A stretch of DNA of 51,306 nucleotides from contig CACWNV010000015.1 of NCBI GenBank assembly GCA_902762325.1, forward strand, positions 1 to 51,306, in the 5' to 3' direction. A program made the translations under genes and the position numbers. The notes under the pieces are model-generated. The model was given only the letters and a program-made list of their open reading frames with translations. It was not told the DNA's origin and did not search any database. This document shows, one piece after another, positions 9,168 to 26,977 of the stretch; positions within the stretch are counted from its first letter, which is position 1, and the number at the start of each line of letters is the position of its first letter. Origin of the DNA: an uncultured Prevotellaceae bacterium. GTDB lineage: Bacteria > Bacteroidota > Bacteroidia > Bacteroidales > Bacteroidaceae.

Positions 9168-11024
9168 TCAATTGAGAAGTGATGTGTCTCCTGTATAAAG
9201 CTGATAATACTTTCCTTTGAGCTGCAAGAGTTCCTCATGAGTTCCATGCTCAATGATGCGACCATGATCGAGCACAATAATCTGGTCGGCATTGCGAACG
9301 GTGGAAAGACGATGGGCAATGACAAAAGTAGTGCGTCCCGACATCAGAGAGTCCATCCCCCTTTGTACAAGCAGTTCGGTACGCGTGTCGATGCTTGACG
9401 TAGCCTCGTCTAAGATAAGTACTGGAGAATGAGCCACCGCCGCCCGCGCAATGGCAAGCAGTTGTCTCTCACCTTGCGACAAGTTTCCTCCATCCCCTTC
9501 AAGTACGGTCAGATAGCCTTTGGCAAGTCTTCTGATAAAGTCATCCGCTCCAACCCTCCGGGCTGCCTCCCGACATTCTTCATCCGTTGCATCAAGACGA
9601 CCATAGCGGATGTTGTCGATGACGGTTCCTGTAAAGAGGTGGGTATCCTGTAATACTATTCCCATCGACTTCCTCAGAGATTCCTTACGGATGTTCTGAA
9701 TTGGAATTCCATCATATAGAATCTCACCGCTCTGTGCATCGTAGAAGCGGTTGATAAGGTTGATGACCGTTGTCTTCCCCGCTCCTGTTCCTCCTACAAA
9801 GGCAATTTTCTGGCTGGGATTCGTGTTAATCGTTATGTCAAAGAGTATCTGCTTTGAAGAGTCATAACTGAAATTGACGTTTCTAAAATCCACATCCCCC
9901 TGCGGATTCACCAGCACCTCACTTCCTTTATCCTCTTCGGGCTCGGCATCCAACAATCTGAATACTCGTTCTGCACCGACGGAAGCATTGAGAACACTAT
10001 TAATCTGCTGGCTGACATGGGTAATGGGTTGTGTGAAACTCTTGTTCAGCTGAAGGAAACTGACAAGAGTGCCAAGGGTAATGGAGAATTGAACGCCAAG
10101 AATAGAAGAGTGTCCAAGTGCAAGAGTCGCCCCAACGACAGCTATCAGCACGTACGTCAGACTTCCCAGACTACCATTGACGGGCATCACGATATTTGCA
10201 ATCTTATTGGCATTGCATGCGCTGGAACGCAACTGCTCGTTGATTGTCTCAAAATCGCTTATAGCCTTCTCCTCATGACAGAATACTTTAACGACCTTCT
10301 GTCCCGTCATCATTTCCTCAATAAAGCCATTGACCTTTGCCAGACTCTCCTGCTGGATGCGGAAGTAGCCACGCGACCGTTCGCCCAGCTTTGTCGTCGT
10401 AAACATCATGACAACAGCCATCACGATGCTTACCAAAGTCAGTGGAACGCTAAGCACGATCATTGACACGAATGTCACGGTAATCGTGATAATCGAATTG
10501 AAGACCTGCGCCATGCTCGTGGAAATCACCTGACGAAGGGAATCCACGTCATTCGTATAGGTGGACATCAGTTCTCCGTGAGAATGTGTATCGAAATAGC
10601 CTATCGGCAAACGCTGCATGTTCTCAAAGATATCTTTCCGAAGCCGGAGCATCGTACCTTGGCTCACATTGATCATCAGTCGATTGTAACTATAAGAACA
10701 GATCACGCCAAAGAGCAGGACAAGTCCCAGCTGGAACAACGTCTGCATCAAGGAAGTATACTGAGGATTGTCTGCCTGGGTGAGCGGTACGATATAATCG
10801 TCTATCAATGACTTTGTAAATAATGTCGAAGCCAAGGAAGTCACAGAAGAAATCATGATACATGCGAGTACCGTCAGCACAGACCACTTGTAGTATTTAA
10901 GAACAAAGCGCAACAACCTCAGAAGGGTGGTCTTCTTATTCGCATCCAGCCTTTGTCTTGCTGACTGAAAGCCACGACCAGGGTTGCGGGAGAATGCCTT
11001 GCCTCCGAATCTGTCTCCGTTCAT
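9168..11024 (-). CDS. Heterodimeric ABC exporter half-transporter with canonical catalytic site
   Basis: A 618-residue type I ABC exporter half: a basic N-terminal extension, six membrane helices (about residues 40-340), then the nucleotide-binding domain. Walker A is GGTGAGKTT (about 413), the Q-loop VLQDTHLF, the signature NLSQGERQLL (about 518), Walker B VLILDEATSSID with the catalytic Glu (about 537), and the H-loop IAHRLSTV. The signature is non-standard (SQGE for SGGQ), whereas the partner's is standard. That is the pattern of asymmetric exporters such as TM287/288 or BmrCD. Start and stop overlap by 4 nt with the partner. It is the last gene of the eight-gene operon. The substrate is unknown: drug, lipid or peptide. 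Confidence 0.93.
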   Translation of the reverse strand: MNGDRFGGKAFSRNPGRGFQSARQRLDANKKTTLLRLLRFVLKYYKWSVLTVLACIMISSVTSLASTLFTKSLIDDYIVPLTQADNPQYTSLMQTLFQLGLVLLFGVICSYSYNRLMINVSQGTMLRLRKDIFENMQRLPIGYFDTHSHGELMSTYTNDVDSLRQVISTSMAQVFNSIITITVTFVSMIVLSVPLTLVSIVMAVVMMFTTTKLGERSRGYFRIQQESLAKVNGFIEEMMTGQKVVKVFCHEEKAISDFETINEQLRSSACNANKIANIVMPVNGSLGSLTYVLIAVVGATLALGHSSILGVQFSITLGTLVSFLQLNKSFTQPITHVSQQINSVLNASVGAERVFRLLDAEPEEDKGSEVLVNPQGDVDFRNVNFSYDSSKQILFDITINTNPSQKIAFVGGTGAGKTTVINLINRFYDAQSGEILYDGIPIQNIRKESLRKSMGIVLQDTHLFTGTVIDNIRYGRLDATDEECREAARRVGADDFIRRLAKGYLTVLEGDGGNLSQGERQLLAIARAAVAHSPVLILDEATSSIDTRTELLVQRGMDSLMSGRTTFVIAHRLSTVRNADQIIVLDHGRIIEHGTHEELLQLKGKYYQLYTGDTSLLN

Positions 11025-12805
11025 GCATTCCCTCCTTTCTTGTCAAAATCCCCGATGTCTTTGTTCTGTATCTCACAGATCTCCCGATAGAGGTCATTCG
11101 TTTTCATCAGCTCTTCATGAGTCCCGAATCCTGTAACCATGCCATTATCCATGACGATAATCTTGTCACAGTCTTTCACACTCAATATGCGCTGGGCAAT
11201 GATAAGCTGTGTCATCTCAGGCAACTGCTTACGGAATGCCATGCGTATCTTTGCATCAGTAGCAGTGTCACACGCACTGGTCGCATCATCGAGTATCAGG
11301 ATGCGAGGATGCTTCAACAAGGCGCGGGCAATACAGAGACGCTGCTTCTGTCCGCCGGAAATATTTGTACCGCCCTGCTCTATTCGTGTCTCGTAGCCAT
11401 CCGGCTTTTCCATGATAAAATCATCAGCCTGCGCTATCTTGCAAGCCTCGCGACAATCCTCAAGGGTTGCATGCTCATTTCCCCACCGAAGGTTTTCAAG
11501 GATGGTACCGGAGAAGAGTGTGTTCTGCTGCAATACGACAGACACCGCATTACGAAGAGTATGGATATCATATTCCCTGACATCGCATCCTCCAACCATC
11601 ACCTGCCCTTTTGTGACATCATAGAGCCGACTGATCAGATTGACCAACGTGGACTTTCCCGAACCAGTACCGCCAATGATACCAATCGTCTGTCCCGGTT
11701 CGATTCTGAAAGAGACATTATAGAGTGCCGAACGCTTGCTCTGGTGAGAACCCGTGGCAGGCGATGGACTATCATTAACACTGTAGTCAAATCTCACATC
11801 GCGGAACTCGATGCTTCCATCGGCGACAACGGTCACGGGATTTTCAGGATTCGTGATGTCAGTCTTTAGGTTGATAACCTCTGTCACTCGTCTGCCACTG
11901 GCAGCACTCTGCGTGAGCATAATGAAGACCATGGACAACATCATCAACGACATCAGAATTGACATTACATAAGTGAACAGAGAAGTAAGTTCACCTGTTG
12001 TCAATGTACCTTCAACGATATAATGTGCTCCAAACCATGAAAGAGCTATCATGCACCCATATACGACCATATTCATGATAGGATGGTTGAGTGCCATTAG
12101 GCTCTCAGCACGGACATAAAGCCAATACAAGCCCTCAGCTGCCTTTGCAAATTTCTCGTTCTCGTATTTCTCACGCACAAACGCTTTCACCACCCGAATC
12201 GCCTGTACATTCTCCTGTACTTTCAGGTTCAGTTCGTCATACTGTTCGAAAACCTTCTGGAACATGCGGGCTACGCGTGAGATGATGTGATAAAGCGAGA
12301 AGGACAAGATAACCATTGCCAGAATAAAGATCACCGACAAACGAGCATCAATGAACAGACACATACAGATGGATAGAATGAGTCGAAAGGGAGCACGTAC
12401 CGTTACACGTAGTATCTGCTGGTAGGCATTCTGAAGATTACTGACATCGGTTGTCATACGGGTTACCAGTCCTGATGTCGAAAATCTGTCAATATCCGCA
12501 AAAGAGAAAGTCTGGATGTTCTTGTACATGGCTGAACGGAGATTGGCAGCAAAGCCCGTCGATGCATAGGCGGACATCCTACCGGCAAGAATACCAAACA
12601 GCAGGCTCACGCATGCCATGATAATCATGACAAACCCATAGAAATAAACATTCTGCATGTTGCCTGCACTGATACCCTTGTCTATCAATGATGCCGTAAC
12701 ATAAGGTATCAGCACATCCATAATCACCTCCAGTACAATAAAAACCGGAGTCAGTATGGAAGCCTTCTTGTATTCTTTTATCTGACCGTAGAGTGTTTTT
12801 ATCAT
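11021..12805 (-). CDS. Heterodimeric ABC exporter half-transporter with degenerate catalytic site
   Basis: A 594-residue half-exporter with six membrane helices and a nucleotide-binding domain. Walker A GGTGSGKST (about 382) and the signature ISGGQKQRL are standard. Walker B, ILILDDATSACD (about 503), has Asp in place of the catalytic Glu, and the H-loop reads IAQR instead of IAHR (about 535). These two changes mark the degenerate ATP site of a heterodimer. The partner gene follows with a 4-nt ATGA-type overlap, ensuring equal synthesis. The start codon directly follows the stop of the zinc-ribbon gene, so the exporter belongs to the tubulin/actin-like operon rather than standing alone. Confidence 0.93.
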   Translation of the reverse strand: MIKTLYGQIKEYKKASILTPVFIVLEVIMDVLIPYVTASLIDKGISAGNMQNVYFYGFVMIIMACVSLLFGILAGRMSAYASTGFAANLRSAMYKNIQTFSFADIDRFSTSGLVTRMTTDVSNLQNAYQQILRVTVRAPFRLILSICMCLFIDARLSVIFILAMVILSFSLYHIISRVARMFQKVFEQYDELNLKVQENVQAIRVVKAFVREKYENEKFAKAAEGLYWLYVRAESLMALNHPIMNMVVYGCMIALSWFGAHYIVEGTLTTGELTSLFTYVMSILMSLMMLSMVFIMLTQSAASGRRVTEVINLKTDITNPENPVTVVADGSIEFRDVRFDYSVNDSPSPATGSHQSKRSALYNVSFRIEPGQTIGIIGGTGSGKSTLVNLISRLYDVTKGQVMVGGCDVREYDIHTLRNAVSVVLQQNTLFSGTILENLRWGNEHATLEDCREACKIAQADDFIMEKPDGYETRIEQGGTNISGGQKQRLCIARALLKHPRILILDDATSACDTATDAKIRMAFRKQLPEMTQLIIAQRILSVKDCDKIIVMDNGMVTGFGTHEELMKTNDLYREICEIQNKDIGDFDKKGGNA

Positions 12806-13588
12806 TTAATAAAACTCTCTCTTCTCCATCCACATGCCGTCGCCGGCATCTATTCTTTCATTCTCTAAGTCTAATTTACGTACTTCCACCTCACCTTTAC
12901 CAAAGTCACAGAAAAGACATCCCTTCTCGTAATAGAATGTCCCATGACTTGTTTCTCCACCAGAGGCCTCTGCTATGTGGTTGCCATGGATGGTTATTCG
13001 TATCATCCCTTCTTCTGAATCAACAACCCAGCTGCCTTCAATCCAGTCGGGAGCCTTTTCGGGAGCAACCTCCTGAAACTCATCGGCCTCATCAATAACC
13101 TCCGGCTCTGGCAAAGCATTGGAGGTGGGAGCCTTTATCACTTCATCAGGTGTCTTGATGTCTTCGGATGTATATCTCTTTTCAGAGCCGCATGTCTGTA
13201 AAAAGAAAATGGCAAGAACAATAGAAACGACGATTCCAATGACACACCCTTTCATGTAGTTCTGCGTCTTTTCAGATGTACGTAACAGATTGGGAGGAGT
13301 GACATGCTTACTCTGCTTCCATCTGTTTGCATCAGAATCATGATAGTGAGATGCAGGGGGTACAGGCTGAGTCGTTCTGTGAACATGCCTGTTGTCCTGT
13401 ATAGCAGCTTCATCCGCTCCTGCCCTTTGAGTTTGATTCTCAACTCTCTTCTCTACATGAGGAGCATCTGTGGGAACTGTATAGGTGAACGGTGTACCAC
13501 ATCGCGGGCACACAGTCGCTAATTCTTTTATACCTGATGCAACGGACGCATCAAACCTATATCTGCATTTCGGGCATTTCACTTCCAT
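12806..13588 (-). CDS. Zinc-ribbon, single-helix membrane protein
   Basis: A 260-residue protein of unknown function. The N-terminus has a zinc ribbon of two CxxC pairs (CPKC at about 5 and CPRC at about 27, MJ0042-like). A polar linker follows, then a membrane helix (GCVIGIVVSIVLAIFFLQTC, about 114-133), an acidic proline-rich stretch, and a C-terminal domain beginning WIEGSWVVDSEEGMIRITIHG that looks like a small beta barrel. The topology suggests a cytoplasmic ribbon and an external beta domain, linking the cytosolic NTPases of the operon to the envelope. Adjacent to the ABC gene with no gap and 27 nt after the coiled-coil gene. Confidence 0.75.
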   Translation of the reverse strand: MEVKCPKCRYRFDASVASGIKELATVCPRCGTPFTYTVPTDAPHVEKRVENQTQRAGADEAAIQDNRHVHRTTQPVPPASHYHDSDANRWKQSKHVTPPNLLRTSEKTQNYMKGCVIGIVVSIVLAIFFLQTCGSEKRYTSEDIKTPDEVIKAPTSNALPEPEVIDEADEFQEVAPEKAPDWIEGSWVVDSEEGMIRITIHGNHIAEASGGETSHGTFYYEKGCLFCDFGKGEVEVRKLDLENERIDAGDGMWMEKREFY

Positions 13589-13615
13589 AATTCAAACACA
13601 CACGTTTTTCGGTTA

Positions 13616-14206
13616 TCATTCAAAGTGTACAATGGCTTTGCGGGTCACCTTCCAAATGCCGTTTTCCTTAGTCAACGCTCCCTCTTCATCTGTGATGATA
13701 TGACGGGGGAAAGCCGACGCATTGCCATTTACTTTACAAACAGGCTTAACAAACTGGGATATGCTGATGGAGGCTGTAGCAATCGCATCTGAGGTATCTA
13801 ATATCGAGAAGGTACCATTCATGTTATCGCTTGTTGTCAACAGATAGATGCTCTTGCCAATCTGCTCTTGCGATGACACACTGGGGAACGTACCGTCTGC
13901 TGTAGGAGCAGCCAAATACCATTGAGTAGGTTCATCAGCTTTCTGAGGAGTATCTGTTGCACTTATGACAGCAGCGGAAAGACCGAAATCAGATAGTCCC
14001 AAAGACTCTGAAGAAGATTCACTGACTTCTTCGGGCTTCTCTTCTTTCGTTTCTTGCTTCTCAAGAGCCTCAACCCGCTTTTCCAGACTCGCAATTCGTT
14101 TCTGCAAAGCTCTTATCCGGTCCTCGAGCAGACTCGTCAACTGCTCCCTTGCCTCCTCCTCTTCGACATTCTGCTTGCCGAACATATTAGAAAACATATT
14201 TGCCAT
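13616..14206 (-). CDS. Coiled-coil protein of unknown function
   Basis: A 196-residue protein that I do not recognise. Residues about 13-65 form a strong coiled coil (LLEDRIRALQKRIASLEKRV and onward), followed by an acidic Ser/Glu-rich linker and a C-terminal globular region with WYLAAPTADGTF and SIYLLTTSDNMNGTFSI, probably beta-rich. No signal or membrane helix, hence cytosolic. It follows the actin-like gene after 8 nt. By position it could be an adaptor that oligomerises or tethers the filament-type NTPases. Confidence 0.7.
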   Translation of the reverse strand: MANMFSNMFGKQNVEEEEAREQLTSLLEDRIRALQKRIASLEKRVEALEKQETKEEKPEEVSESSSESLGLSDFGLSAAVISATDTPQKADEPTQWYLAAPTADGTFPSVSSQEQIGKSIYLLTTSDNMNGTFSILDTSDAIATASISISQFVKPVCKVNGNASAFPRHIITDEEGALTKENGIWKVTRKAIVHFE

Positions 14207-14214
14207 AAGCTACA

Positions 14215-17200
14215 TCACATCAGGTTTTCAATCAGATTATCACGGATGCTACCGATGATTGGATAGAAGAATACCGTATCCTCTATCGGATCACTTCCAT
14301 TCTTATCATCTGCATTCTTATTCACAAAGTTCCATCCGTTGATAAGATGATGCTCAAGATCCTTGTTGACAAGTTCCTTGAAACGAGAGAGCGACTTGTT
14401 GTCTACGAGGAAGCGGTCTACTACATGTATATCATCACATAGCTTGCAGAAGAACTCATTGAATCTCTTCACCTCATTGACAATCTCCGTCCGAATCTCC
14501 AGCGAAGTCATGTCGTCATACGTCAGCTTCTCTTTGCCAATCATAGAGTAGTTATACTTCAGCTGGCTATCGAAATCATCCAACAGCTTGTTGAGACGGC
14601 TTACACTCTCACAACCACTTGGCTCTCGCACTTCCATCAACGCACCACGACAGGTAATCTGCTTCGGTTCTTTCTTCTCCATCACAACAGAGAATCCGTC
14701 AATATCATACTTCTCACCATAGACACGCTCAAAGACAGCCTGGGTAATCAGGTCGAGATCACGATTGGAACCGACAATGTCCAGCACCTTTGAGCCAGTG
14801 CCACTGAACATAACAGAACGAGGCTTAGCCAGTCCACGATGATGCATCACTTTGGCAACGTAATAGATGAGTGTCACATAGAAATAGATAAAGATAATCT
14901 TCCGTGTCCCGTCCTCATTAAGGCGCATGTTATAGGAGAACACATCATTACCTCCCACCACCTTATTATTAATAACAGAGAACAGGAACGCATTGATGTC
15001 CTCACTCTTCCGTTTACCCGTTATATCATCAAGGATGCCATTCAGCTCTCCGTAACGCTCATCATCAGCGTCAAACAACCGCTTGAAATAGTCCACGTAT
15101 TTAATCAGCATCGGATTGCTGTCTCCGTGTGGGACTTCAGAAAAGCCGTCACCAAACAACACATTGGCAGCAAAACGGAACGAAGTAAGAATTGTAGGCT
15201 GCTGGGCGTTGCTCTCGAAAATAACGACATCACTTGAACCGCCACCTATATCTATGCTTGCGACATTTGAAGCTGAGCCGCGGAACTGACTGGAACTCTT
15301 ATAGAAATAATACGGTGCGACAGATTCAGGCATCTGAATCAAGTTGCTTTCCGTTACGGGAATACCAAAGACTTCTTTGAATGTCTTTGCCCACATCTCT
15401 CCCATCTTTCGGATGTTACCCACCTTCATCGACAAAGGATAGAACCAGACGAGGCGCGTCTTGGTGATATCTCCATTCTCAAGCAACACCTTTGTCCTCA
15501 TCAGCTGGGCAAGTTCAGTAAGATATGAACGAACACGCTTAGAAGTCGCCATTTCCGTTGACCACTTCAAGTTAGGTACGACTCTGTTTCCATAGCCAAT
15601 ACTCTCTTTCTCATAGATGAAAGGAATATTTGCATCGCCAAGTGCAACGATCGCATCTACATTCTCAGCATCCAGACGTTCGCATTCCGATAGCACGGTA
15701 CGCTGGGGGAATCCATAGTCCTCTCCTAATGTCTTTGGCAGCAACTCCTGCTTCATGATGACATCATAGAGGATTTGCTCGCCGTTATATAAAGTAGCAA
15801 GGAGACGGTCTCGGGCAGCAGAATTCAGATGAATCGGCTCTGGCATGTTTCCTCCCTTCATGCACTCCAGATGTGTATTTGTCGTTCCGAAGTCAACGGA
15901 GAAGGTGAATGGTTCATGGCCTGGGATGTAATCTCCCCAGCGAGGACAAACCATACCCTCGGCAACACGGTTACCACGGTCATCTGTCAGCATGATGCTG
16001 ATATAGTCAAACTCAGAGACCAGCTTGTAATAGCATGAGCCGACGCGCTTTTCCGATTTCAGACTACGTTCACGTGCTGTAACGAATTCCTCTTTTACCT
16101 GATTCTGATAGCCATTCTTAAAGAACGTCATAGACAGGCTATAGTTCTGAAGCAGACCAAGTGCTCGGTCAATAAGCTGTACATTGTATTGGTTACCCTG
16201 TGGTATGCGGACAAAGGGGAAGATGCTCAAGGCAAACGGAACGGTGATGAAATAGCCCCGATTGTTTGCCACGTCATAACGTAAGTCAACACTACGAGCC
16301 GACACATAGTTTCTCTCAAGCGTGATGAACTTTCCCTGCTTCTGCACAGGAATACGAAGAATGGCACGTACCGTTTCAGTTGCACCCGTCTGGGTGTGTA
16401 TCATTTCAAACTTTGGACGTCCTCCTATTGTTCCCCACAAGTCTGACACTTTAAAATACTTGAAGAAAAGCGGCTTCAGCGGGAGCACAAAGTCACAGTC
16501 GTCGGTATCTCTGGAACCAATCGACAGATTGCCGTCGAAGAAACAGTCGCGGTCGATAGTATAATCGAGTTTTATCAAAGCGGGCTGGAAGAAGTCGTCG
16601 TCTGTCAGCCAAGGATACTGGTGAGTCGTTGCCGGCAACACGCGCTTCTCTGGAGGAAGGGCATAGTCGGCAGGTGTTATCACCGTTGAATCGGTCCACG
16701 GACTGGAAATGTACTTGAACGGGTCTGTCTGCGGGGCATTCAGATGATTCTGGAGAACCAACGGTAAACGGTCATCTACTTCCTGAGAAGGAACAATCAT
16801 AAAGTCACTTGACAAGATAGAGGCCTGAATGTCTTCGGCACGGGCACAATAGAAAGGTACTCCGAGTGCCTGAATACCCTCGTCCATCTTTGAGTAGTTC
16901 GAGTCAAGGAATGTCTTGGCCTTCTCAATGTTCTCATAATCATAGGCTGAAGGGTTACCAATCTCCTTCAAAATCTCAGTCTGCAATTCACCTGGCAGTA
17001 ACCGAAGATTAGTAATCAGGTAGGCATTCACCTCTCCGCAACATTTCTTAAGATCGGGATATGCGGTGAAAAGCGCATAGATATATTTTACAAACTTCGG
17101 GTCACGACGATACAAAGGACGCCACTGGTCAAAGAGATTCACGTTCTGTTCCACTGGGATGGAATAGACGCCCTCCCTTGCATTTGGCGTAGCCATGAAC

Positions 17201-17688
17201 AAAGTAACGGGTGAAGTGGAACCCAGCACTTGATTCCCATGCACAAGGAAATAGAGTCGGTCCATCTTGTCAAAATTGAACGCTTCCTTATCCTGATCAA
17301 GGAACATCTCAATGGTCTCTCCCAGTAATTTATGCTGAGGTGAATTCTTCAACATCTCAAGCTGAGTATCGCGATTCCACTCGACAATACGGAGCTGCGT
17401 GCGAAGCTCGCTATAGTCGAAGAACAGCTGAGCGACATCCAGGGCGTTTGCCACAAGCTTCTCATCCATGGCTTCTCCCTGTAGTGTCATGTGAGTGGAA
17501 AGACGTTTGAAGGCATTCTTCACCAGATCCATCTGTGCAAAAGGCGAAGGTATTGCCGTACGAGGCTGCTGCGACAATCCACCATTCGGATCATCTATCA
17601 TATCTATTTCATCAGCATTGTACTGACTCGTCAAAGGAATCCATCCTTCACCTGTTGTCTTATTATTGTATGAAAGTATCTTACTCAT
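14215..17688 (-). CDS. Large protein with Hsp70/actin-type ATPase domain (1157 aa)
   Basis: About 590 residues of unknown N-terminal region precede an actin/Hsp70-superfamily ATPase domain. The three nucleotide-binding motifs are visible in order: phosphate-1 FTFSVDFGTTNTHLE (about 597), phosphate-2 VASIDIGGGSSDVVIFE (about 809), and an adenosine motif VMFSGTGSKVLDIVG (about 961). The layout, a long N-terminal part then an Hsp70-like core, is reminiscent of SrfB-like proteins, but I cannot confirm the family. No signal or membrane helix. Its ATG shares one base with the stop of the tubulin-like gene, so the two are translationally coupled, which argues for a joint complex. Confidence 0.8.
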   Translation of the reverse strand: MSKILSYNNKTTGEGWIPLTSQYNADEIDMIDDPNGGLSQQPRTAIPSPFAQMDLVKNAFKRLSTHMTLQGEAMDEKLVANALDVAQLFFDYSELRTQLRIVEWNRDTQLEMLKNSPQHKLLGETIEMFLDQDKEAFNFDKMDRLYFLVHGNQVLGSTSPVTLFMATPNAREGVYSIPVEQNVNLFDQWRPLYRRDPKFVKYIYALFTAYPDLKKCCGEVNAYLITNLRLLPGELQTEILKEIGNPSAYDYENIEKAKTFLDSNYSKMDEGIQALGVPFYCARAEDIQASILSSDFMIVPSQEVDDRLPLVLQNHLNAPQTDPFKYISSPWTDSTVITPADYALPPEKRVLPATTHQYPWLTDDDFFQPALIKLDYTIDRDCFFDGNLSIGSRDTDDCDFVLPLKPLFFKYFKVSDLWGTIGGRPKFEMIHTQTGATETVRAILRIPVQKQGKFITLERNYVSARSVDLRYDVANNRGYFITVPFALSIFPFVRIPQGNQYNVQLIDRALGLLQNYSLSMTFFKNGYQNQVKEEFVTARERSLKSEKRVGSCYYKLVSEFDYISIMLTDDRGNRVAEGMVCPRWGDYIPGHEPFTFSVDFGTTNTHLECMKGGNMPEPIHLNSAARDRLLATLYNGEQILYDVIMKQELLPKTLGEDYGFPQRTVLSECERLDAENVDAIVALGDANIPFIYEKESIGYGNRVVPNLKWSTEMATSKRVRSYLTELAQLMRTKVLLENGDITKTRLVWFYPLSMKVGNIRKMGEMWAKTFKEVFGIPVTESNLIQMPESVAPYYFYKSSSQFRGSASNVASIDIGGGSSDVVIFESNAQQPTILTSFRFAANVLFGDGFSEVPHGDSNPMLIKYVDYFKRLFDADDERYGELNGILDDITGKRKSEDINAFLFSVINNKVVGGNDVFSYNMRLNEDGTRKIIFIYFYVTLIYYVAKVMHHRGLAKPRSVMFSGTGSKVLDIVGSNRDLDLITQAVFERVYGEKYDIDGFSVVMEKKEPKQITCRGALMEVREPSGCESVSRLNKLLDDFDSQLKYNYSMIGKEKLTYDDMTSLEIRTEIVNEVKRFNEFFCKLCDDIHVVDRFLVDNKSLSRFKELVNKDLEHHLINGWNFVNKNADDKNGSDPIEDTVFFYPIIGSIRDNLIENLM

Positions 17689-19232
17689 TATACAATTGCA
17701 TTATATTTCTCATCAATTAACTTCTCCAATGTCTCGTCTAACAAATCGAGCAGTTTCAAGGAAACTCCATCAGATCCGTATTTTGCGGTCTTTACCGCCA
17801 TCTGCGAAGCTTTGTTCATGGCAGAAAGAACAGATTTATAATCTATAGTCGACTTGAAGAGACCGCTCTTCGGTGTAATGTCTTTCAGGCAGTCGCTAAG
17901 CTTCTCCGTACCAAGATTAAACGGAACGAAGCTCCGCTGGTTTCCTTTCAGCTCCTTCAGCCATGTGCGATACCCAACGAAGAAGTCTGCCGTGAGCGTA
18001 TTATAAAAAGACGTAGAAAGGAAGCCGTTGCTTATCTCTGGCTTATCCTGGGTGTAACCACGCCCTATGTCTGCCTTGAACTGGTTCGTGATGTACATAT
18101 AGGCAAGGTGGAACTTCACGAATTGTCTGTTCACCAAAGCTCTTGTCTGTAAGCCAAAGTCCATCAGGCTCAATGTTGTCTTATCATTGGCAAGGCCAAA
18201 TTCCTTGAAGATAGGATTCTGTGCATTTCCCCCTACGGTCTGTAACTGATCGTTAGGAATGGAGAGGAAATCCATCACGGCAAGTGCTCCGACATACTCG
18301 ACGAGGTGAGCGTCATTACGCTGCCCGTTACCTCCCGGATCATTAAAATAGGGATTACTGGGTACCTGGTCACCAAGATAATAGCAGGCATTGATCTTCG
18401 ACATCGGCAAGTCTACACCATTCTGGTGCAATCCGGTCAGATTATCATGATAATAGAAAAGCGCCGACTTTGTCTTTGAAATAAAATCGCCACGGGAAAT
18501 GGGGCTGTTATCGTCCTGCTGTACATTAAAATACGGTAAGACGGTCAAGGCTCCGATACGGGCATCACGCAAGTCACCACGGTTGTTGATCTGGGTATTG
18601 TTACCTGCATTTCGGATATTCTTCACGATAATCGGATAGCCTGCTGCGCCGGTTCCTCCAAAGATACTTGACACGACAAAGATACGGTCGTTCTTCTGGA
18701 ACACATTAGAAAACTGGCGGAACTCCTCTGAGTCCTTGAACTGATTAAGAGCGACACTACCGATATTCGGGCTGCCGACAAAACCAATGTCCATCTTCGT
18801 GTTCAACTGATAGTCAGAGAACATCATGGAACAGAGAGCCTGATTACCGGTGTCAAGTGTTGAATAGTTGATGAAGTCGTGGAACTTCTTCGACTCAATG
18901 GCACCCATGTTAAACAGGAACGTATCGCTCAGCTGAGAGCCATTGGGAAGGATATCAGACAGAGTGCTGATCTTCACCGAGAAGAATCCTTTTCTCACAT
19001 CAGTCTGCTCTCCATATAATTGACGACGAATCTGTTTGTACCACCGCATCAGATTGTCTGTACGTTTCAAATCCTCATTAGCCTTATGAGGGTCGACGAT
19101 AATCGGAATTATCTCAAGTGGCATGGGCTGCCCTGACTCATCCATCGGATGGATACCTGCGGCACATTGCATGATCAACGGGCGCATCACACGCGACCCT
19201 GTACCACCTACTAAAAACAAAAAGAGTCTCAT
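17688..19232 (-). CDS. Tubulin-like GTPase family protein
   Basis: A 514-residue protein. The N-terminus, FLFLVGGTGSRVMRPL, has the glycine-rich first loop of tubulin/FtsZ-type GTPases, and VVSSIFGGTGAAGYPIIVKN (about residues 185-204) corresponds to the tubulin signature loop GGTG(T/S)G. This is the pattern of the 'Tubulin-like' family (PF13809, from memory), distinct from FtsZ, which would be encoded elsewhere. It probably binds GTP and may polymerise. The C-terminal helix (LKLLDLLDETLEKLIDEKYN) is amphipathic. It is directly adjacent to the four-helix membrane gene upstream and overlaps the actin-like gene downstream. Confidence 0.78.
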   Translation of the reverse strand: MRLFLFLVGGTGSRVMRPLIMQCAAGIHPMDESGQPMPLEIIPIIVDPHKANEDLKRTDNLMRWYKQIRRQLYGEQTDVRKGFFSVKISTLSDILPNGSQLSDTFLFNMGAIESKKFHDFINYSTLDTGNQALCSMMFSDYQLNTKMDIGFVGSPNIGSVALNQFKDSEEFRQFSNVFQKNDRIFVVSSIFGGTGAAGYPIIVKNIRNAGNNTQINNRGDLRDARIGALTVLPYFNVQQDDNSPISRGDFISKTKSALFYYHDNLTGLHQNGVDLPMSKINACYYLGDQVPSNPYFNDPGGNGQRNDAHLVEYVGALAVMDFLSIPNDQLQTVGGNAQNPIFKEFGLANDKTTLSLMDFGLQTRALVNRQFVKFHLAYMYITNQFKADIGRGYTQDKPEISNGFLSTSFYNTLTADFFVGYRTWLKELKGNQRSFVPFNLGTEKLSDCLKDITPKSGLFKSTIDYKSVLSAMNKASQMAVKTAKYGSDGVSLKLLDLLDETLEKLIDEKYNAIV

Positions 19233-19676
19233 TTATTCGGGTATTGGAGTATGACGACAATTAGAAGACCACCAACGGATGGAGAAAGAGGCTATAATGA
19301 AAAGCACCGCCTCAACCACGAAGTCCATCACACAGAAGCTGAACAGCTGTGCTGAGAAATCAAGTCCGTCTCCTGAGAAAATACTGTTGGGGTAGATATA
19401 ATTAATAGTTGGTGCTAATACTGCTGCAACTCCCAAGACAATCAGCCAATGATACCATCTGGAAAAACTGACAGAATTGATGGCATAATAATAAATACCG
19501 GCAGCTGCCCAGGCAATAAGAGCAGTGACAACGGCCACTACCAGATAAAGATTCTGATTGTACATTTCATTAGAGAACTCACGCTCATAATAAAGATTCT
19601 CGAAGATCGGGGTAGATAGAATCAGGAACAACAAGGTAATAACCAGTCCTGCTATCAACAAGATTGTATTCTTCAT
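19233..19676 (-). CDS. Four-helix inner-membrane protein, unknown
   Basis: A 147-residue hydrophobic protein with about four membrane segments (residues roughly 4-24, 43-66, 76-96 and 112-133) and a short charged tail. I do not recognise the family. It lies between the vWA lipoprotein (11 nt upstream) and the tubulin-like gene (no gap). It could be the membrane anchor joining the external lipoprotein to the cytoplasmic NTPases; this is inference from position only. Confidence 0.7.
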   Translation of the reverse strand: MKNTILLIAGLVITLLFLILSTPIFENLYYEREFSNEMYNQNLYLVVAVVTALIAWAAAGIYYYAINSVSFSRWYHWLIVLGVAAVLAPTINYIYPNSIFSGDGLDFSAQLFSFCVMDFVVEAVLFIIASFSIRWWSSNCRHTPIPE

Positions 19677-19687
19677 CTCAAAAATAT

Positions 19688-21184
19688 TTATTTATTAAAT
19701 TCCAAATCGATTTCAAAATAATAGGGCTCCTTTTCCGAATGCTTGCGGTAACTGTCGTAGATACCCTGAAGCAAGTACTTCAAGCCGAAGGTGGTGGTGG
19801 AGAAACCTGCGCCGCCGACATTGGTATCATCATCGCTCGACGACTCCTCAACCCAGTAAGGAAGTCTGTTCATCAGCTTAATCTCGACTTTCTGGTCGTG
19901 ATTGATGCCATCGCTGCCGAGGACGAAGATGTGTGTTGCCTTGCCGATGTATTTCTTCTCAGCAGGTGTAATGTCCTTCTGGTCGATTCTCCGGATTTGA
20001 AGTATCTCTACCTTATCATCCGATTCAATGCGATAGTTCTTCTTGTCGGTAAGATAAGACTCGTCAATCAGCATGCCGCTAAGGTCAACTGCAAGGGCGA
20101 GACGAATATCTCCGGAGTTGCGGTCTACCTCAATATCCTCTAAGTTCTTTATCTGAGACTCCTGTCCACGCTCAGGTGTGAAACGGCCACGGATATCATC
20201 ATTGCTCAGCAACAAGGAATAATAGGGCTTGTAAACATCATCTGTTTCGAAAAGATACATGTTCTCATAGCCTTTCAGCTCATTCAACCGACTAAATGCT
20301 GCATAGTTGTTGTCTTTCGTCAGTCGAGCGATAATGTCATTCGCCCCTACAATCACGATGTAATAAGGACGGCGTCCCGTGTAGCTCTGTCCACCCGGAG
20401 AATTATAGGAATAATAAGGACCGGAGTAGCTGCCGTTCATTTTGACAATCAGCATTCCCTTATCCTTCACTTCGCTCTTAAACACGGCGTTAGCCATACC
20501 CTGTGCTTCGGCAAACACCTTCTGAGCATTTACCCCAGCCATGTTCTTGGTTGAATAGATCATGTCTGTCACAAGAATACTCAGTTCATCAGCTCCCGTC
20601 TTGTTGAGTAGCTGTGAGAAGATGGCGGCAAAGTCGGTAAAGCTCGCATCACCGATTCCTTTCGTCGCCTCGAAGATATTGGGGTCGGAAATAAACTTAG
20701 AGAAGCCTTCGGGATAAGTGTTGATTTCACTATTGACAACATAGATGTGATGATCTTCATTCCCGCCCGGCAGGTTGTTCAGCATCTGCACAATGGCTGC
20801 CTTGAAGGAACCGTCACCATTGGGTGAGTCATAGGGAACCATTGAACCGGAACGCTCCAAATAGAAGTTTACTCCTAATGTCCGTTTCCCGATTATAAAC
20901 TGTATTTCCTTGGAAGGACGACGATGCTCGAAGAAATCCGACACATAGTCTTTCACGGCATCTACATCCAATTTTCCATCAACATAAAAATCGCGGAAAT
21001 TAGCCTTCTGCTCGTCTAAAAACTTTTCTATGGCTTCCCAGTCGTTAACGTCAATTGTCTTATCCTTGTCTGCCAGTTCAAGCAATAAACGATTCAACTC
21101 TTTTTTTCCGCCTCCACCACAGGCTGAAAGCACAACAGTCATCAGCAGCACTGCCATACTCATCATCAGTGATATATTCTTCAT
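19688..21184 (-). CDS. Lipoprotein with von Willebrand A-like domain
   Basis: A 498-residue protein with a lipoprotein signal (VVLSAC, Cys about 22, followed by four Gly). A vWA-like fold starts near residue 105: GVNFYLERSGSMVPYD holds a MIDAS-like motif in which the first Asp of DxSxS is replaced (ERSGSM). The later MIDAS Thr is likely in ASFTDFAAIF (about 183) and the Asp in LVTDMIYST (about 206). A C-terminal region of about 180 residues follows. It is first in the eight-gene operon and is probably anchored in the periplasm or on the surface, where it could bind a protein partner. Confidence 0.78.
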   Translation of the reverse strand: MKNISLMMSMAVLLMTVVLSACGGGGKKELNRLLLELADKDKTIDVNDWEAIEKFLDEQKANFRDFYVDGKLDVDAVKDYVSDFFEHRRPSKEIQFIIGKRTLGVNFYLERSGSMVPYDSPNGDGSFKAAIVQMLNNLPGGNEDHHIYVVNSEINTYPEGFSKFISDPNIFEATKGIGDASFTDFAAIFSQLLNKTGADELSILVTDMIYSTKNMAGVNAQKVFAEAQGMANAVFKSEVKDKGMLIVKMNGSYSGPYYSYNSPGGQSYTGRRPYYIVIVGANDIIARLTKDNNYAAFSRLNELKGYENMYLFETDDVYKPYYSLLLSNDDIRGRFTPERGQESQIKNLEDIEVDRNSGDIRLALAVDLSGMLIDESYLTDKKNYRIESDDKVEILQIRRIDQKDITPAEKKYIGKATHIFVLGSDGINHDQKVEIKLMNRLPYWVEESSSDDDTNVGGAGFSTTTFGLKYLLQGIYDSYRKHSEKEPYYFEIDLEFNK

Positions 21185-21274: not shown

Positions 21275-21282
21275 CAAAAGTA
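21275..21282 (-). promoter_or_regulatory. Probable promoter -7 box of the eight-gene operon
   Basis: CAAAAGTA on the plus strand reads TACTTTTG on the minus strand, about 90 nt before the vWA gene. No good -33 partner is visible. Confidence 0.45.
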
Positions 21283-22109: not shown

Positions 22110-24125
22110 ATGAACAAGAAAATATTTTTACTGTTGTCAATTCTGATCTGGGCTGTTGAGATGAGTGGCCAATGGTCTTTAAAGACGAATCTGCCGACTA
22201 TTTACATCAACACCTTTGACGGAAAAGGCATCACAAGTAAGACTACCTATGTCAATGCAAAGATGGTTTATATGGATGAAGACAGCCATATCACGCAATG
22301 GGACACCATACAAATCAGAGGAAGAGGCAATTCAACGTGGGGTTTGAATAAAAAGCCTTACCGGATTAAATTCCTGAAGAAACAACGGCTCTTAGGTAGC
22401 GAAAAGGCTAATGCAAAGTCTTGGACCTTGTTAGCTAATGCGGCTGACAAGACGCTGATACGTAATGCGTTAGCTTCAGCCTATAGTGAGTTCTCTGCCC
22501 TACCCTTCAGCCCTTCCTATAAGTTTGTTGACCTGGTATTGAATGATACTTACATGGGCTGCTATCAGATAAGCGACCAGATTGACATCAAAAAAAAGCG
22601 AGTGAATATTGTAGAACAAGACGTGCCGCTTGCGGAGGATGCGGACATTTCTGGCGGTTATCTGTTGGAAGTCGACGGCTTTAAAGACGGCAACTGCTTT
22701 ACTACGTCTGTCTATAATGTACCCATCCGTATTCACTCTCCCGATGAAGACGAGATCGTTTCATCACAGAATCAGTACATTCGCGACTACATCAACCAGT
22801 TTGAGAATCGTCTTCGTGCCAACACGTTCTCAGATGCAGAAAAAGGATATAGGGCTATTGTGGACTCCACCACTTTAATTGACTGGTTCTTAGGAACAGA
22901 AATAACCGCTAATATAGACGGTTATTATAGCACCTATTTTTATAAGGACCAAAACGACTCTTTGCTTTATTGGGGGCCGATGTGGGATTATGACATAGCC
23001 TTTAACAATGATTACCGTATGCAGAGAGAGCAGGGAGTGTGGACAACTGCATATAGTTTGATGACTGACATCGGCTATGGACAGACAAAACTATGGATTA
23101 ACAGGATGTGGCAGGATCCCTGGTTCTCACGACAGGTGAACAGGAGATATAATGAACTGCTTGATAATGGACTTGTCGATTATCTCTATCAGAAAATAGA
23201 CAGCCTTACCCAGCTTTTGAATCGTTCCATCCAGCTCAATTACGAGAAATGGGGAATCAATCAAAGAACATACCACGAGATTGTCTTATACAGTTCATAC
23301 GACCAATATGTTACTGACCTGAAAGACTTTATCTCCGAACACTGCAATTACCTTAAAGATGCATTTGCCAACAAAATGCCTCCTGAGCCTACTCCCGACT
23401 TCGTTCCGGTGGAATACTTCTATCGTATCCTGAATGCCAAGACCGCAAAAGCATTCGACCTGTCAGGAACAAACGTATGCCAGTATTCGAACATTGTGAA
23501 CCGAGAGACGGAAGACTGGATCATCATCCCTGCAAATGGCTACTTCCAACTTATCAACAGGAGTAATGGATTAGCCCTGAATGACCCGACAATTGGAACG
23601 TCGACTCCAACAACGAACATAGGAACACAACTGAATGTCGCACAACGTGACACGACTGACACTAATCAGCTTTGGGAGATTATCCCACAAGGTACGGAAG
23701 GATATTATAACTTGCTGAATGTCAGTACACAACACATCGCGAATCTGAGCGGAGGCAACAGCAGCGACGGTACAACGATAATAAGTTACACCAATGATTA
23801 CAGGAATGGAGAAAGCCTGAACAGACTATGGTATTTCATTCCTACGAAAGAAGCCATCCCAGAAGAATATACGGGTATCAAAGAGCATGAACCAGAGAAT
23901 TATGCTTTAGCTTATAATCCAACTAGTCAACATCTGCATTTCGGTTCTGACACACGAGAAGAGCTGACCTTTGTCGTCAGTGTATATTCCGCAAATGGCG
24001 CAAAGATAGGAACATTCAAAGCAGATGAAGAGTTCTCAATGCTGAATCAGCCTTCAGGAACATACATCGTGACATGGCGTTGTGGCAACAAGACAAGAAG
24101 CGTGAAATTCCAGAAGACTAACTAA
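22110..24125 (+). CDS. Secreted CotH-kinase family protein with ricin-like and T9SS domains
   Basis: A 671-residue protein with a signal peptide ending EMSGQ. The CotH-type kinase region covers about residues 30-430: IQIRGRGNSTWGLNKKPYRI is the hallmark N-terminal motif, and GPMWDYDIAFNNDY (about 290) carries the metal-site aspartates. CotH proteins are atypical protein kinases known from spore coats. Residues about 440-590 resemble a ricin-type lectin (repeated NQLWEIIP and NRLWYFIP). The last 75 residues (VSVYSANGAKIGTF, then PSGTYIVTWRC) look like a type A T9SS sorting domain. I infer a cell-surface or secreted protein. It is monocistronic, convergent with the next gene with a 3-nt gap. 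Confidence 0.85.
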   Translation: MNKKIFLLLSILIWAVEMSGQWSLKTNLPTIYINTFDGKGITSKTTYVNAKMVYMDEDSHITQWDTIQIRGRGNSTWGLNKKPYRIKFLKKQRLLGSEKANAKSWTLLANAADKTLIRNALASAYSEFSALPFSPSYKFVDLVLNDTYMGCYQISDQIDIKKKRVNIVEQDVPLAEDADISGGYLLEVDGFKDGNCFTTSVYNVPIRIHSPDEDEIVSSQNQYIRDYINQFENRLRANTFSDAEKGYRAIVDSTTLIDWFLGTEITANIDGYYSTYFYKDQNDSLLYWGPMWDYDIAFNNDYRMQREQGVWTTAYSLMTDIGYGQTKLWINRMWQDPWFSRQVNRRYNELLDNGLVDYLYQKIDSLTQLLNRSIQLNYEKWGINQRTYHEIVLYSSYDQYVTDLKDFISEHCNYLKDAFANKMPPEPTPDFVPVEYFYRILNAKTAKAFDLSGTNVCQYSNIVNRETEDWIIIPANGYFQLINRSNGLALNDPTIGTSTPTTNIGTQLNVAQRDTTDTNQLWEIIPQGTEGYYNLLNVSTQHIANLSGGNSSDGTTIISYTNDYRNGESLNRLWYFIPTKEAIPEEYTGIKEHEPENYALAYNPTSQHLHFGSDTREELTFVVSVYSANGAKIGTFKADEEFSMLNQPSGTYIVTWRCGNKTRSVKFQKTN

Positions 24126-24128
24126 TTC

Positions 24129-25079
24129 CTATGAGTTAATGGCTCCACAGTGAGGGCACTTCCCCTTACTGTGGATTTCTTGTCCACAGTACCCACAAAT
24201 CATACTTGAATAATGGTGGGTGAAGTATTGTCTCAATGCGAAGTATATATAAAGAACCAATAAGAAATAGCCGACGTAATATAATGTCGTGATACTAAAA
24301 ACAACATAATTGATAGCACAAACTCCCACCAATCCGAACAGATAGGTTATCACATCGTCTAATGGTAACCTACGGCGAATATCATCCAAAACGGCTAAAC
24401 CGACTATTAGCATAGCCCAGACCAAGACAAGGAATATAGACAGAACCATCGGAACAGAGAAGGGATTCAATGTGGGATGGAAATAGAAATGCTGCCATAC
24501 GTCAGGGGCGAAATTCTGAATGCTTGCATACAAAGTAGCAGCAAGGGCAACTAACAAGGCCAATAGTGTCGGATAAATAGAGTCTATATCATTAAAATGA
24601 ACGATATAATCATTCTGGCGTTTCATTCTCCTTATTATATAAATAAAGAAAATCACCGATAAGATTATCAGAAACACGATTATATGTTTATCCGAGAAAG
24701 TGGAGATAAACTGGGAGATTGGGTCGTCAGGAACGACATCCTTCAACAGCTGTGACTCATGAATCCATCCGAAATCAGACCATTCTGTCGCAACCTGAAC
24801 CCAGACAGAGTCAACAGAGTCGTTGGGAACTATCCGAATGTCTGCTATCACAAGATGCTCATCTTTCTGGACGATAAATGAATCCGTCATTAACTTCAAA
24901 AGACGCTCCTCGGGTTGCTGCCTCAACAACATCAAAGAGTCGGACTTGACCACAACATTATAATTGAAAGAAATATATCTCTCAGAAGTATACTTACTGC
25001 TATTATAACATGATGACAACAGCAATAAGAAAAAGCCTGACACCGTCAAATGAAACAGAAAGGACAATTTATTCAGCAT
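24129..25079 (-). CDS. Lipoprotein-like multi-helix membrane protein with C-terminal zinc ribbon
   Basis: A 316-residue protein of unknown function. The N-terminus looks like a lipoprotein signal (LLLLSSC). A periplasmic region of about 110 residues containing VWVQVATEWSDFGWIHESQL resembles an SH3-like element. About five membrane helices follow, and a zinc ribbon CGYCGQEIHSKGKCPHCG closes the protein. The start overlaps the end of the U32 gene by 11 nt, so it is the third gene of the metA operon, although a functional link is not evident. Confidence 0.72.
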   Translation of the reverse strand: MLNKLSFLFHLTVSGFFLLLLSSCYNSSKYTSERYISFNYNVVVKSDSLMLLRQQPEERLLKLMTDSFIVQKDEHLVIADIRIVPNDSVDSVWVQVATEWSDFGWIHESQLLKDVVPDDPISQFISTFSDKHIIVFLIILSVIFFIYIIRRMKRQNDYIVHFNDIDSIYPTLLALLVALAATLYASIQNFAPDVWQHFYFHPTLNPFSVPMVLSIFLVLVWAMLIVGLAVLDDIRRRLPLDDVITYLFGLVGVCAINYVVFSITTLYYVGYFLLVLYIYFALRQYFTHHYSSMICGYCGQEIHSKGKCPHCGAINS

Positions 25080-26964
25080 AGATATTCATCTGACATTTAT
25101 TACAATCAAACTGCAAACGAAAGCGACGACCATCAGAGAGTCGTAAATAAAGAGGTTCATGGAGGGCACTTGCTGCCCCATCATGTCTCTTGCAACGTCC
25201 AAGAGAAAACAACAGGCAATAACGGCACTGCATCAATAAAGGATGCGAGAGCTTATCCGCATTCTGCTTGCCATGTAATTCAAGTGCTTCATCAACTTTC
25301 ACCTGCCGTTGCGAGTAAAAAGCACGGGAAAGACGATTAGACACATTATATAAATAAGGTAGATGATAAAGCGGAGTCTTGACATTCGAATCGCCTTCTA
25401 TATAAGGGGAAGTGCTCCGAGACTCTGCTAATGCCTCGTCAATCTTCCGCACAAGGTCTCTTCTTAACTCTGCCAACCGACTACTTGGAATAAAAAACTT
25501 GTCAACATCGGACTCAAAATCAAGTCCTGTACATAAATAAGGAGTATTACCTAATTTGGTCAATTGCCGGTACATATTCTCCCGTTGAGGCTTTTCTGCC
25601 AAATGTTTCTCACAAGACAAGTGAGAAGAAACTGACAAAGAAGGCATAAGGCTTGCAATCAACGAAAAGCCGTCAGCCACCTCCTTGAGAGCCATTCTTA
25701 TAGATATCTTCCGCTGAGCCGTCTCACCATTCATTAGTTTTTCGAAAGCAACATCCTTATTGCGATAAAGTGCCATTCCCGATTGTAAGCCTAATGGCAT
25801 CTTCAATGGAAACAGATGATTCCCTTCAACACGATTCACCCGAAACCCAACGAGTTCATTATGCCCATCGAAAAAACACAAGCCGTCACCATTTGAAAAC
25901 GAAGCGACACCAGCTACAATAAAGTACGAACGATGAGTCACTTTCACCTTTCCGACATATTCGCCCAAAGCTTTAGGAGTATCAAATGACGCTATATCCA
26001 TCCGACGGCCTTGAAGTCTTCCTTTCTCATCTACCGTTGAATGTAAAAAATAGTCAGTAAAGCCTCGATTGAAGGTCTTCGCCAGACATGGAGTAAAACT
26101 ATAGCTCACTTTCCCCAATGATGCACGCTGGTATTCTGCCGAACGACGATGAATCATTTCATCCAAACGCTGGCTATATGCAGCTACAACATTCTTCACA
26201 TAGTCAACATCCTTCAAACGTCCTTCTATCTTAAAGGAAACAACTCCAGCATCAGCCAACTGCTCCAGATAGTCAATACGACACATGTCCTTCAGGGATA
26301 GTAAATGGCGCTGGTGCTCAATGACATGGCCATCGGCATCAACAAGGTCGTATTTCATTCTGCACATCTGGGCACACTCGCCCCGATTCGCACTACGTCC
26401 CAAACAATATTGTGATGCATAACACTGGCCACTATAGCTCACGCATAATGCCCCGTGAACAAACACCTCAAGTTCTATATCCGGAACTTCCTGATGAATA
26501 TTACGTATCTCATCCAAAGACAGCTCACGGGCCAACACGACACGTTGAAATCCTAAAGAATGGAGCCATCTGACCTTATCAACCGTCCGATTATCAGTTT
26601 GAGTACTTGCATGAAGGACAGGTATGCATTTGGACTCAGTCTTCAATGAGCGAACAAGCTCGAGTAGTCCCATATCCTGAACCAACAACGCATCTACTCC
26701 AATATCGCACAACTTTTTTATCAGCGCTCGCGTATCGTCAATTTCAGTGTCATAAATAATTGTATTGACAGTAACATAGACTTTTGCTCCATACTGATGT
26801 GCGTACTGACATAAAGAAGCTAAATCCTCAACTGAATTACCAGCTGCCGCCCTCGCCCCATAGCGTGATGCACCAATATATACAGCATCTGCACCATGAT
26901 CAATAGCAGCAATGCCGCACGCCAAGTTTTTTGCAGGAGCCAATAATTCAAGTTTCTTCATCAT
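25069..26964 (-). CDS. Peptidase U32 family protein, RlhA-like (23S rRNA C2501 hydroxylation)
   Basis: A 631-residue protein. The N-terminal half is a U32 TIM barrel: ELLAPAKNLACGIAAIDHGA, then DAVYIGASRYGARAAAGNS. The cysteine cluster CVSYSGQCYASQYCLGRSAN with GECAQMC (about residues 167-205) is shared with RlhA and TrhP, enzymes now known as RNA hydroxylases acting with prephenate and an Fe-S cluster rather than proteases. Length and the second domain fit RlhA (653 aa in E. coli) better than TrhP. A second in-frame ATG three bases in is an alternative start. It lies 13 nt after metA. Confidence 0.85.
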   Translation of the reverse strand: MMKKLELLAPAKNLACGIAAIDHGADAVYIGASRYGARAAAGNSVEDLASLCQYAHQYGAKVYVTVNTIIYDTEIDDTRALIKKLCDIGVDALLVQDMGLLELVRSLKTESKCIPVLHASTQTDNRTVDKVRWLHSLGFQRVVLARELSLDEIRNIHQEVPDIELEVFVHGALCVSYSGQCYASQYCLGRSANRGECAQMCRMKYDLVDADGHVIEHQRHLLSLKDMCRIDYLEQLADAGVVSFKIEGRLKDVDYVKNVVAAYSQRLDEMIHRRSAEYQRASLGKVSYSFTPCLAKTFNRGFTDYFLHSTVDEKGRLQGRRMDIASFDTPKALGEYVGKVKVTHRSYFIVAGVASFSNGDGLCFFDGHNELVGFRVNRVEGNHLFPLKMPLGLQSGMALYRNKDVAFEKLMNGETAQRKISIRMALKEVADGFSLIASLMPSLSVSSHLSCEKHLAEKPQRENMYRQLTKLGNTPYLCTGLDFESDVDKFFIPSSRLAELRRDLVRKIDEALAESRSTSPYIEGDSNVKTPLYHLPYLYNVSNRLSRAFYSQRQVKVDEALELHGKQNADKLSHPLLMQCRYCLLFSLGRCKRHDGAASALHEPLYLRLSDGRRFRLQFDCNKCQMNIYAE

Positions 26965-26977
26965 GTAAAATACAAGA

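Follow-up and report, generated by a model that had tools for sequence, protein, structure and literature searches.

A conserved gene module that pairs a tubulin-like GTPase with an actin/Hsp70-like ATPase and may form a cell-envelope machine

We analysed a stretch of 51,306 nucleotides (nt) from an uncultured Prevotellaceae bacterium (contig CACWNV010000015.1; hereafter the window), in which an initial annotation, made from the letters and their open reading frames (ORFs), had pointed to an eight-gene operon at positions 9168..21184. This locus contains a conserved unit that encodes an exported von Willebrand factor A (vWA) protein, a small membrane protein, a tubulin-like GTPase, an actin/Hsp70-like ATPase and, usually, a coiled-coil adaptor. 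The module looks like a widespread, unstudied cell-envelope machine. We tentatively favor, with somewhat less than even confidence, an envelope-spanning machine with two nucleoside triphosphatases (NTPases), the likely role of which is the surveillance of the envelope against an invader such as a phage, a function that we infer.

The eight ORFs are all present on the minus strand, and their contents are as described in the initial annotation: vWA-like, four-helix, tubulin-like, actin/Hsp70-like, coiled-coil, zinc-ribbon and ATP-binding cassette (ABC) proteins. In the order of transcription the intergenic gaps are 11, 0, −1, 8, 27, 0 and −4 nt; gaps of at most 27 nt were correctly noted, but only two overlaps (1 and 4 nt) were found instead of several. 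The first core gene (19688..21184, minus strand) encodes an exported lipoprotein-type vWA-like protein of 498 amino acids (aa), whose translation has a signal-peptide/lipobox-like start and a motif resembling a metal-ion-dependent adhesion site (MIDAS), ERSGSM, with E replacing the first D. It is followed, on the same strand, by the genes of a 147-aa small membrane protein with four transmembrane (TM) helices predicted from hydropathy (19233..19676), a 514-aa tubulin/FtsZ-superfamily GTPase with both tubulin glycine loops and a tubulin fold (17688..19232), a large ATPase of 1157 aa, of which residues ~591–1034 have an actin/MreB/Hsp70 fold and residues 1–590 are a front part (14215..17688), and a 196-aa adaptor with a coiled coil and a conserved C-terminal domain common to its relatives (13616..14206). 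A second copy of the core was not found among the ORFs of the window.

To see how this order is kept elsewhere, neighborhoods fetched from two genome sets (40 and 19) were compared. Around 59 ATPase loci, the tubulin gene was directly 5′ of the ATPase gene in 56, a vWA-type cluster occupied position −3 in 47, and position −2 was taken by the small membrane protein in 42. Around 60 tubulin loci, which represent 59 places because L112 duplicates L088 with the same genes, profiles and motifs placed the ATPase next to the tubulin gene in 60/60, a membrane protein of similar size with at least three helices upstream of it in 49/60, a MIDAS-type vWA protein in 46/60 (motif test) and the adaptor C-terminal domain nearby in 45/60 (profile, E ≤ 0.01). 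Because many loci had been found via the ATPase itself, the fair figure for adjacency comes from the loci retrieved with tubulin queries, and there the ATPase adjoined in 27 out of 27 (L042–L061, L094–L097, L190, L191 and L194); among the new loci from a phylum search it did so in three out of four (L123–L125, not L126). The core order was also seen in Clostridia, with Defluviitaleaceae and Clostridiales (L114, L115) among the matches listed, and on the mobilizable Gloeothece verrucosa plasmid NC_014503.1, where the vWA gene is on the opposite strand. The latter locus (L194, NC_014503.1:30747-47550) contains the core together with two coiled-coil proteins. The order therefore reaches far past one strain, and four to six genes recur, so that the eight-gene operon proposed at first is too large as a conserved unit. 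The taxonomic breadth obtained from the genome scan is a lower bound.

The tubulin gene was detected in 100 out of 398 sampled genomes of the genus, five of the 100 having two tubulin matches; this frequency and the repetition of the gene order in other phyla indicate that the locus exceeds a chance arrangement. The ATPase was found in 16/395 genomes of the class and the tubulin profile matched in 9/296 genomes of the phylum. In a tree of the ATPase the genus occupies several deep lineages (six changes of the genus label, five of them forced by well-supported branches), a pattern that suggests horizontal transfer or early duplications. A mobile-element reading was tried and rejected, the phage records giving no match. 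Six plasmid records matched, namely a 1.77-Mb Prevotella replicon and five cyanobacterial ones, of which one neighborhood, that of Gloeothece, was inspected; the Prevotella replicon (L193, NC_022111.1) is catalogued as a plasmid and bears the module. Three contigs of a viral collection also matched, two of them near-identical, and their DNA may be viral or that of a host.

The tubulin fold of the 514-aa protein, first suggested by its loops, was confirmed by the structure check, in which Foldseek returned nothing at E ≤ 0.001 for the tubulin model but a second aligner did find a match; the protein has the tubulin/FtsZ nucleotide-binding fold. Its Pfam scores are under the cut-offs (Tubulin_2, 18.2 vs 27 bits; Tubulin, 17.8 vs 33), and across the family 27 out of 28 members match Tubulin_2 (PF13809) at E ≤ 0.1, the best at 4.1e-10. 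The glycine-rich T4 loop is nearly invariant, with G192, G193 and G195 in 60/60 and T194 in 59/60 sequences, and a Q-x-N-x-A-H-x-x-E stretch is conserved at the likely T6–H7 region. Polymerising relatives have a catalytic acid (T7) after helix H7, which serves filament-coupled hydrolysis. Between residues 313 and 426 of the window family, where T7 is located at the level of the region, no acid is kept in at least 85% of the rows. Since no conserved acid is seen downstream of H7, the protein would act as a switch or scaffold that depends on GTP, and not as a treadmilling filament of the FtsZ type. The model contains only separate helices of at most ~23 residues and no long coiled coil.

The pairing of a tubulin-family protein with a vWA protein is already known, as the initial annotation had correctly noted: in the main text of Makarova and Koonin (2010; PMC2875224) it is described for FtsZl1, together with OmpA-type partners and the proposal of membrane remodelling, and a Bacteroides caccae sequence is in figure 1. 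Our module resembles FtsZl1/Tubulin_2 in that a divergent tubulin-family protein is beside an exported vWA protein (46 of the 60 loci by motif), with OmpA-type proteins in some genomes and a patchy distribution (PMC2875224), and among the matches of the window family profile is a protein of the Gloeothece plasmid with the annotation ‘tubulin-like doman-containing’ (E 2.8e-62). It differs in several respects. The window protein stays under the curated Tubulin_2 cut-off and, unlike the majority of FtsZl1 proteins as presented in that paper, does not have an extended coiled coil after the FtsZ-like domain; the T6–H7 stretch was not findable by the FtsZl1 authors (PMC2875224); and the window core is without a kinase or separate GTPase. 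Hsp70, MotB and TerD are not mentioned in the main text of PMC2875224, its supplements being outside this statement. A 2023 survey, in the portion available, treats Tubulin_2 as a sparse group and sets it aside (PMC9871819), and in the available portion of PMC12904381, a paper that names both Zorya and tubulin, the word ‘tubulin’ is in the title of a reference.

One interpretation is that the module remodels membranes or forms vesicles as proposed for FtsZl1, with membrane-bound polymers of the tubulin- and actin-type proteins on the four-TM protein shaping the inner membrane. The tubulin–vWA–OmpA linkage and the same hypothesis in PMC2875224 agree with it, as does the origin of both folds in polymer-forming superfamilies. 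Nevertheless, we consider it rather unlikely, because no acid is conserved at the 85% level between tubulin residues 313 and 426, where polymerisation of the FtsZ type would need one, because the vWA protein and many of the accessory enzymes lie across the membrane from such polymers, and because the distribution is patchy.

The 1157-aa protein has the actin/Hsp70 motifs and the two-phosphate-loop ATPase fold, and the structure check again upheld the fold that had been claimed; the matches listed, which one domain took up, give no solved fold for residues 1–590. The protein has no Pfam match at E ≤ 1, and Hsp70 is absent among the 12 families listed for 28 of its relatives; Pfam does not place it among the Hsp70 chaperones proper, which match Hsp70 and have a substrate-binding domain. 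The nucleotide-binding (active-site) residues are conserved in the core NTPases; the protein would be an active ATPase whose 590-residue front part may bind a partner or client. In Bacteroides luti (L111:9872-13405) the large ATPase itself ends in the adaptor domain (residues 1071–1176, E 1.2e-10), a fusion that suggests physical contact between the ATPase and the adaptor. A match of the adaptor domain at the end of the ZorA-like protein of L082 was weak (E 0.017) and was not used. Two of 28 ATPase relatives match the SrfB family PF07520 at E ≤ 0.1 (best 0.065), and SrfB may be a distant relative of the large ATPase, a weak lead. The SrfABC operon as described in PMC6950479 contains no tubulin gene, and the link to it consists of these weak matches.

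The other two core proteins are also conserved in their main features. Pfam gives no match at E ≤ 1 for the 498-aa vWA-like protein; among its relatives of the same cluster at the corresponding place in 51 loci, a crude lipobox pattern was found in 33 and D/E-x-S-x-S was visible in most. In the alignment of the small membrane protein, Y63 is kept in 42/42 rows and W77 in 41/42.

What is new here is that in 24 of the 60 tubulin loci the core continues downstream into a MotA-like and a MotB-like gene that resemble ZorA and ZorB of Zorya, an anti-phage defence system. The MotA-like gene was found in 25 loci, the MotB-like in 24 and both in 24, one false match having been removed: a coiled-coil protein of L047, ZorB-like in the first-pass profile search (E 6.8e-4), was judged false. 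The MotA-like protein, which matches MotA_ExbB weakly (E 1.7e-4 and 8.2e-4, under the cut-off), carries a long coiled tail. Its MotB-like partner matches OmpA (best E 1.1e-7) and MotB_plug; in addition to an OmpA-type domain it has an aspartate in the TM segment, D15, that is conserved in at least 90% of the rows. Of the proteins tested with PADLOC models, all four MotB-like ones match ZorB1 (best E 2.7e-13) and three of the four MotA-like ones match ZorA1 (best 5e-6), that of L106 giving none. Divergent pairs in L056, L060, L061, L108 and L109 have no MotA or MotB match in Pfam. On the ATPase tree the motor pair needs eight changes, six of them forced by well-supported branches. Because both arms of the main Bacteroidota fork include the pair, several losses, one of them in the window’s clade, are likelier than several gains, although branches near the changes have only moderate support.

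ZorAB is a 5:2 motor for which peptidoglycan binding and the ZorA tail are needed, according to the available text of PMC11890865, where ‘tubulin’ occurs 0 times. The 24 loci are like Zorya in that they encode a MotA-like protein with a long coiled tail and a MotB-like one that has both the TM aspartate and an OmpA-type domain, with nucleases near some of them. They are unlike it in that the tubulin, actin/Hsp70-type, vWA and four-TM genes are not Zorya genes and the nucleases look exported; the window itself has no such pair. A PADLOC defence-gene scan of the flanks covered 104 of 119 listed proteins and was run without a control; ZorC/ZorD, ZorE and ZorF/ZorG were none of them among the matches listed (25 of 77 families) for the 10 operon and 104 flanking proteins. 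In the open-licence literature, supplements aside, we found no account of a tubulin and actin/Hsp70-type pair with a Zorya-like motor. It is possible, if doubtful, that the module belongs to a hitherto unrecognised class of envelope machine, a cytoskeleton-based immune device in which the tubulin GTPase and the actin-type ATPase jointly serve a Zorya-like ion motor, anchored to peptidoglycan, as its clutch or effector in the cytoplasm, together with an exported vWA sensor and exported nucleases; the window would then have a simplified, motor-less descendant.

Some loci also neighbor proteins of the trypsin-like protease, aspartyl protease, SNase and Endonuclease_NS types (one to two members per cluster tested). 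These mostly have signal-like starts, as judged by eye, and the set differs from locus to locus. In one locus a DUF4357 protein (L096:2308-3468, E 2.9e-19) separates the Zorya-like pair from an Endonuclease_NS gene. The relatives with exported proteases and nucleases, the Hsp70-like fold and a stable chromosomal site in the window’s clade could also mean that the module serves protein quality control or the response to envelope stress, in which case the Hsp70-like ATPase and a tubulin-like regulator would govern how envelope proteins are folded, exported or anchored, with the hydrolases as clients or helpers. We find this rather unlikely as well, since the window ATPase and the families listed for its 28 relatives give no Pfam Hsp70 match, the exported enzymes vary between loci, and a chaperone is not expected with a peptidoglycan-anchored ion motor.

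Two TerD-domain proteins (L061:1840-3161; E 7.9e-44 and 1.1e-41) are 3′ of the module’s most divergent members in the genus, a possible tie to tellurite-resistance/stress proteins. TerD in this one locus, and the tubulin, vWA and HSP70 genes reported in GTPase-centred systems in the available text of Kaur et al. 2020 (PMC7159879), would fit an NTP-dependent conflict system in which tubulin and Hsp70 assemblies are thresholding platforms. Like those systems, which are mainly from Firmicutes and Actinobacteria (PMC7159879), the module has tubulin, a vWA protein placed on the outer side and an HSP70-type protein. However, the tubulin and HSP70 themes there are in non-overlapping neighborhoods and always with TRAFAC GTPases (PMC7159879), whereas tubulin and Hsp70-type genes are always together in the module loci and no TRAFAC GTPase or GAP1 was seen. 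The ten window proteins scanned include no P-loop GTPase above the cut-off and hence no TRAFAC GTPase, GAP1 models as such not being part of the search. An assignment to conflict systems of this kind therefore seems quite unlikely.

Behind the adaptor, the window has three further minus-strand genes of the proposed operon. The first (12806..13588) encodes a 260-aa protein with weak zinc-ribbon matches at its start, a TM helix at residues 115–133 and an outer domain; its cluster (cluster 7) comprises 12 proteins from 10 loci, every one in the clade around the window, and it is an accessory of this clade. The other two encode ABC exporter half-proteins of 594 aa (11021..12805) and 618 aa (9168..11024), both with PF00664 and PF00005, which are neighbors and probably not components. 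That the two cytoskeletal NTPases power this exporter for lipid or surface export could be suspected from the spacing of the ABC genes behind the zinc-ribbon gene (0 and −4 nt) and from the same arrangement, with the pair directly 3′ of the module, in L042, L142 and L143. The pair is, however, upstream of the module with one gene between in L098, separated from it in L144–L146, on another contig in L149, L150 and L156 and absent from the loci of other phyla, and ABC orthologues (E ≤ 1e-150) occur in 12/28 module-positive and 3/14 module-negative genomes. The exporter was therefore rejected as a core part, and this explanation is very unlikely: the pair is a local neighbor that comes and goes while the module site stays steady. 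The exporter, which the initial annotation had made a component of the machine, is probably not one, so its suggestion of lipid handling or surface export receives no special support; the envelope machine with two cytoskeletal-type NTPases stands as far as the folds and the envelope partners are concerned.

Upstream of the module, MetA, U32 and 316-aa genes are found in several relatives, and MatE is downstream in several. The genes at 24129-27895, for a zinc-ribbon membrane protein, a U32 peptidase and MetA, were considered as a part of the module and rejected as a syntenic housekeeping flank, and of these the 316-aa gene remains a candidate part. In the window it lies at 24129-25079 (minus strand) and its product begins like a lipoprotein, crosses the membrane with about five more TM helices and resembles a zinc ribbon at its C-terminus; in L044, L152 and L154 the gene is directly upstream of the vWA gene, beside U32 peptidase and metA. 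Between this gene and the module, at 22110-24125 on the plus strand, is the gene of a protein that combines a CotH-kinase domain with a ricin-type lectin domain and weakly matches a secretion tail. A possible Bacteroidota −7 box, TACTTTTG, is located 5′ of the first module gene (21275..21282, minus strand); this is a weak, by-eye reading against the consensus, and the strict two-box promoter pattern does not occur at the site.

The surveillance reading that we prefer is supported by the folds, the active-site residues, the core order, the motor pair, the exported enzymes, TerD and the patchy spread. Both NTPases would be on the inner side of the envelope-spanning machine, a signal would travel across the inner membrane through the small membrane protein and its exported vWA partner, and the coiled-coil protein would link the ATPase to the remaining parts. 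In many relatives the assembly may be coupled to a motor of the ZorA/ZorB type that is driven by ions, anchored to peptidoglycan and extended into the cytoplasm by a long tail, and in some relatives exported nucleases and proteases would join it, so that the machine would work in a Zorya-like way, yet not be Zorya. The window’s clade has no motor, having probably lost it, and instead carries the zinc-ribbon membrane protein behind the adaptor. The formation of the complex, its location and the roles in switching and surveillance are all deduced from genes and models. Several observations weigh against surveillance. The ATPase locus L089 has no tubulin gene beside the ATPase; the window lacks the ZorA/ZorB pair of the 24 relatives, and a search of its genome, run without a positive control genome, found nothing ZorA-like and, for a ZorB-like profile, only a partial match of the OmpA type; no window protein strongly matches any defence model; the phage records are empty of the module; and in the window’s clade the module is at a stable site beside metA/U32 or MatE, which housekeeping fits equally.

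A fixed partnership of a tubulin-like and an actin-like protein is seldom seen in bacteria, and here the two are adjacent in all of the 60 tubulin loci compared, across at least Bacteroidota, Clostridia and a cyanobacterial plasmid. With the module, the FtsZl1 prediction of 2010 takes the form of a concrete putative complex whose parts can be named. The motor resembling that of Zorya offers a testable link from cytoskeletal-fold NTPases to ion-driven defence machines.

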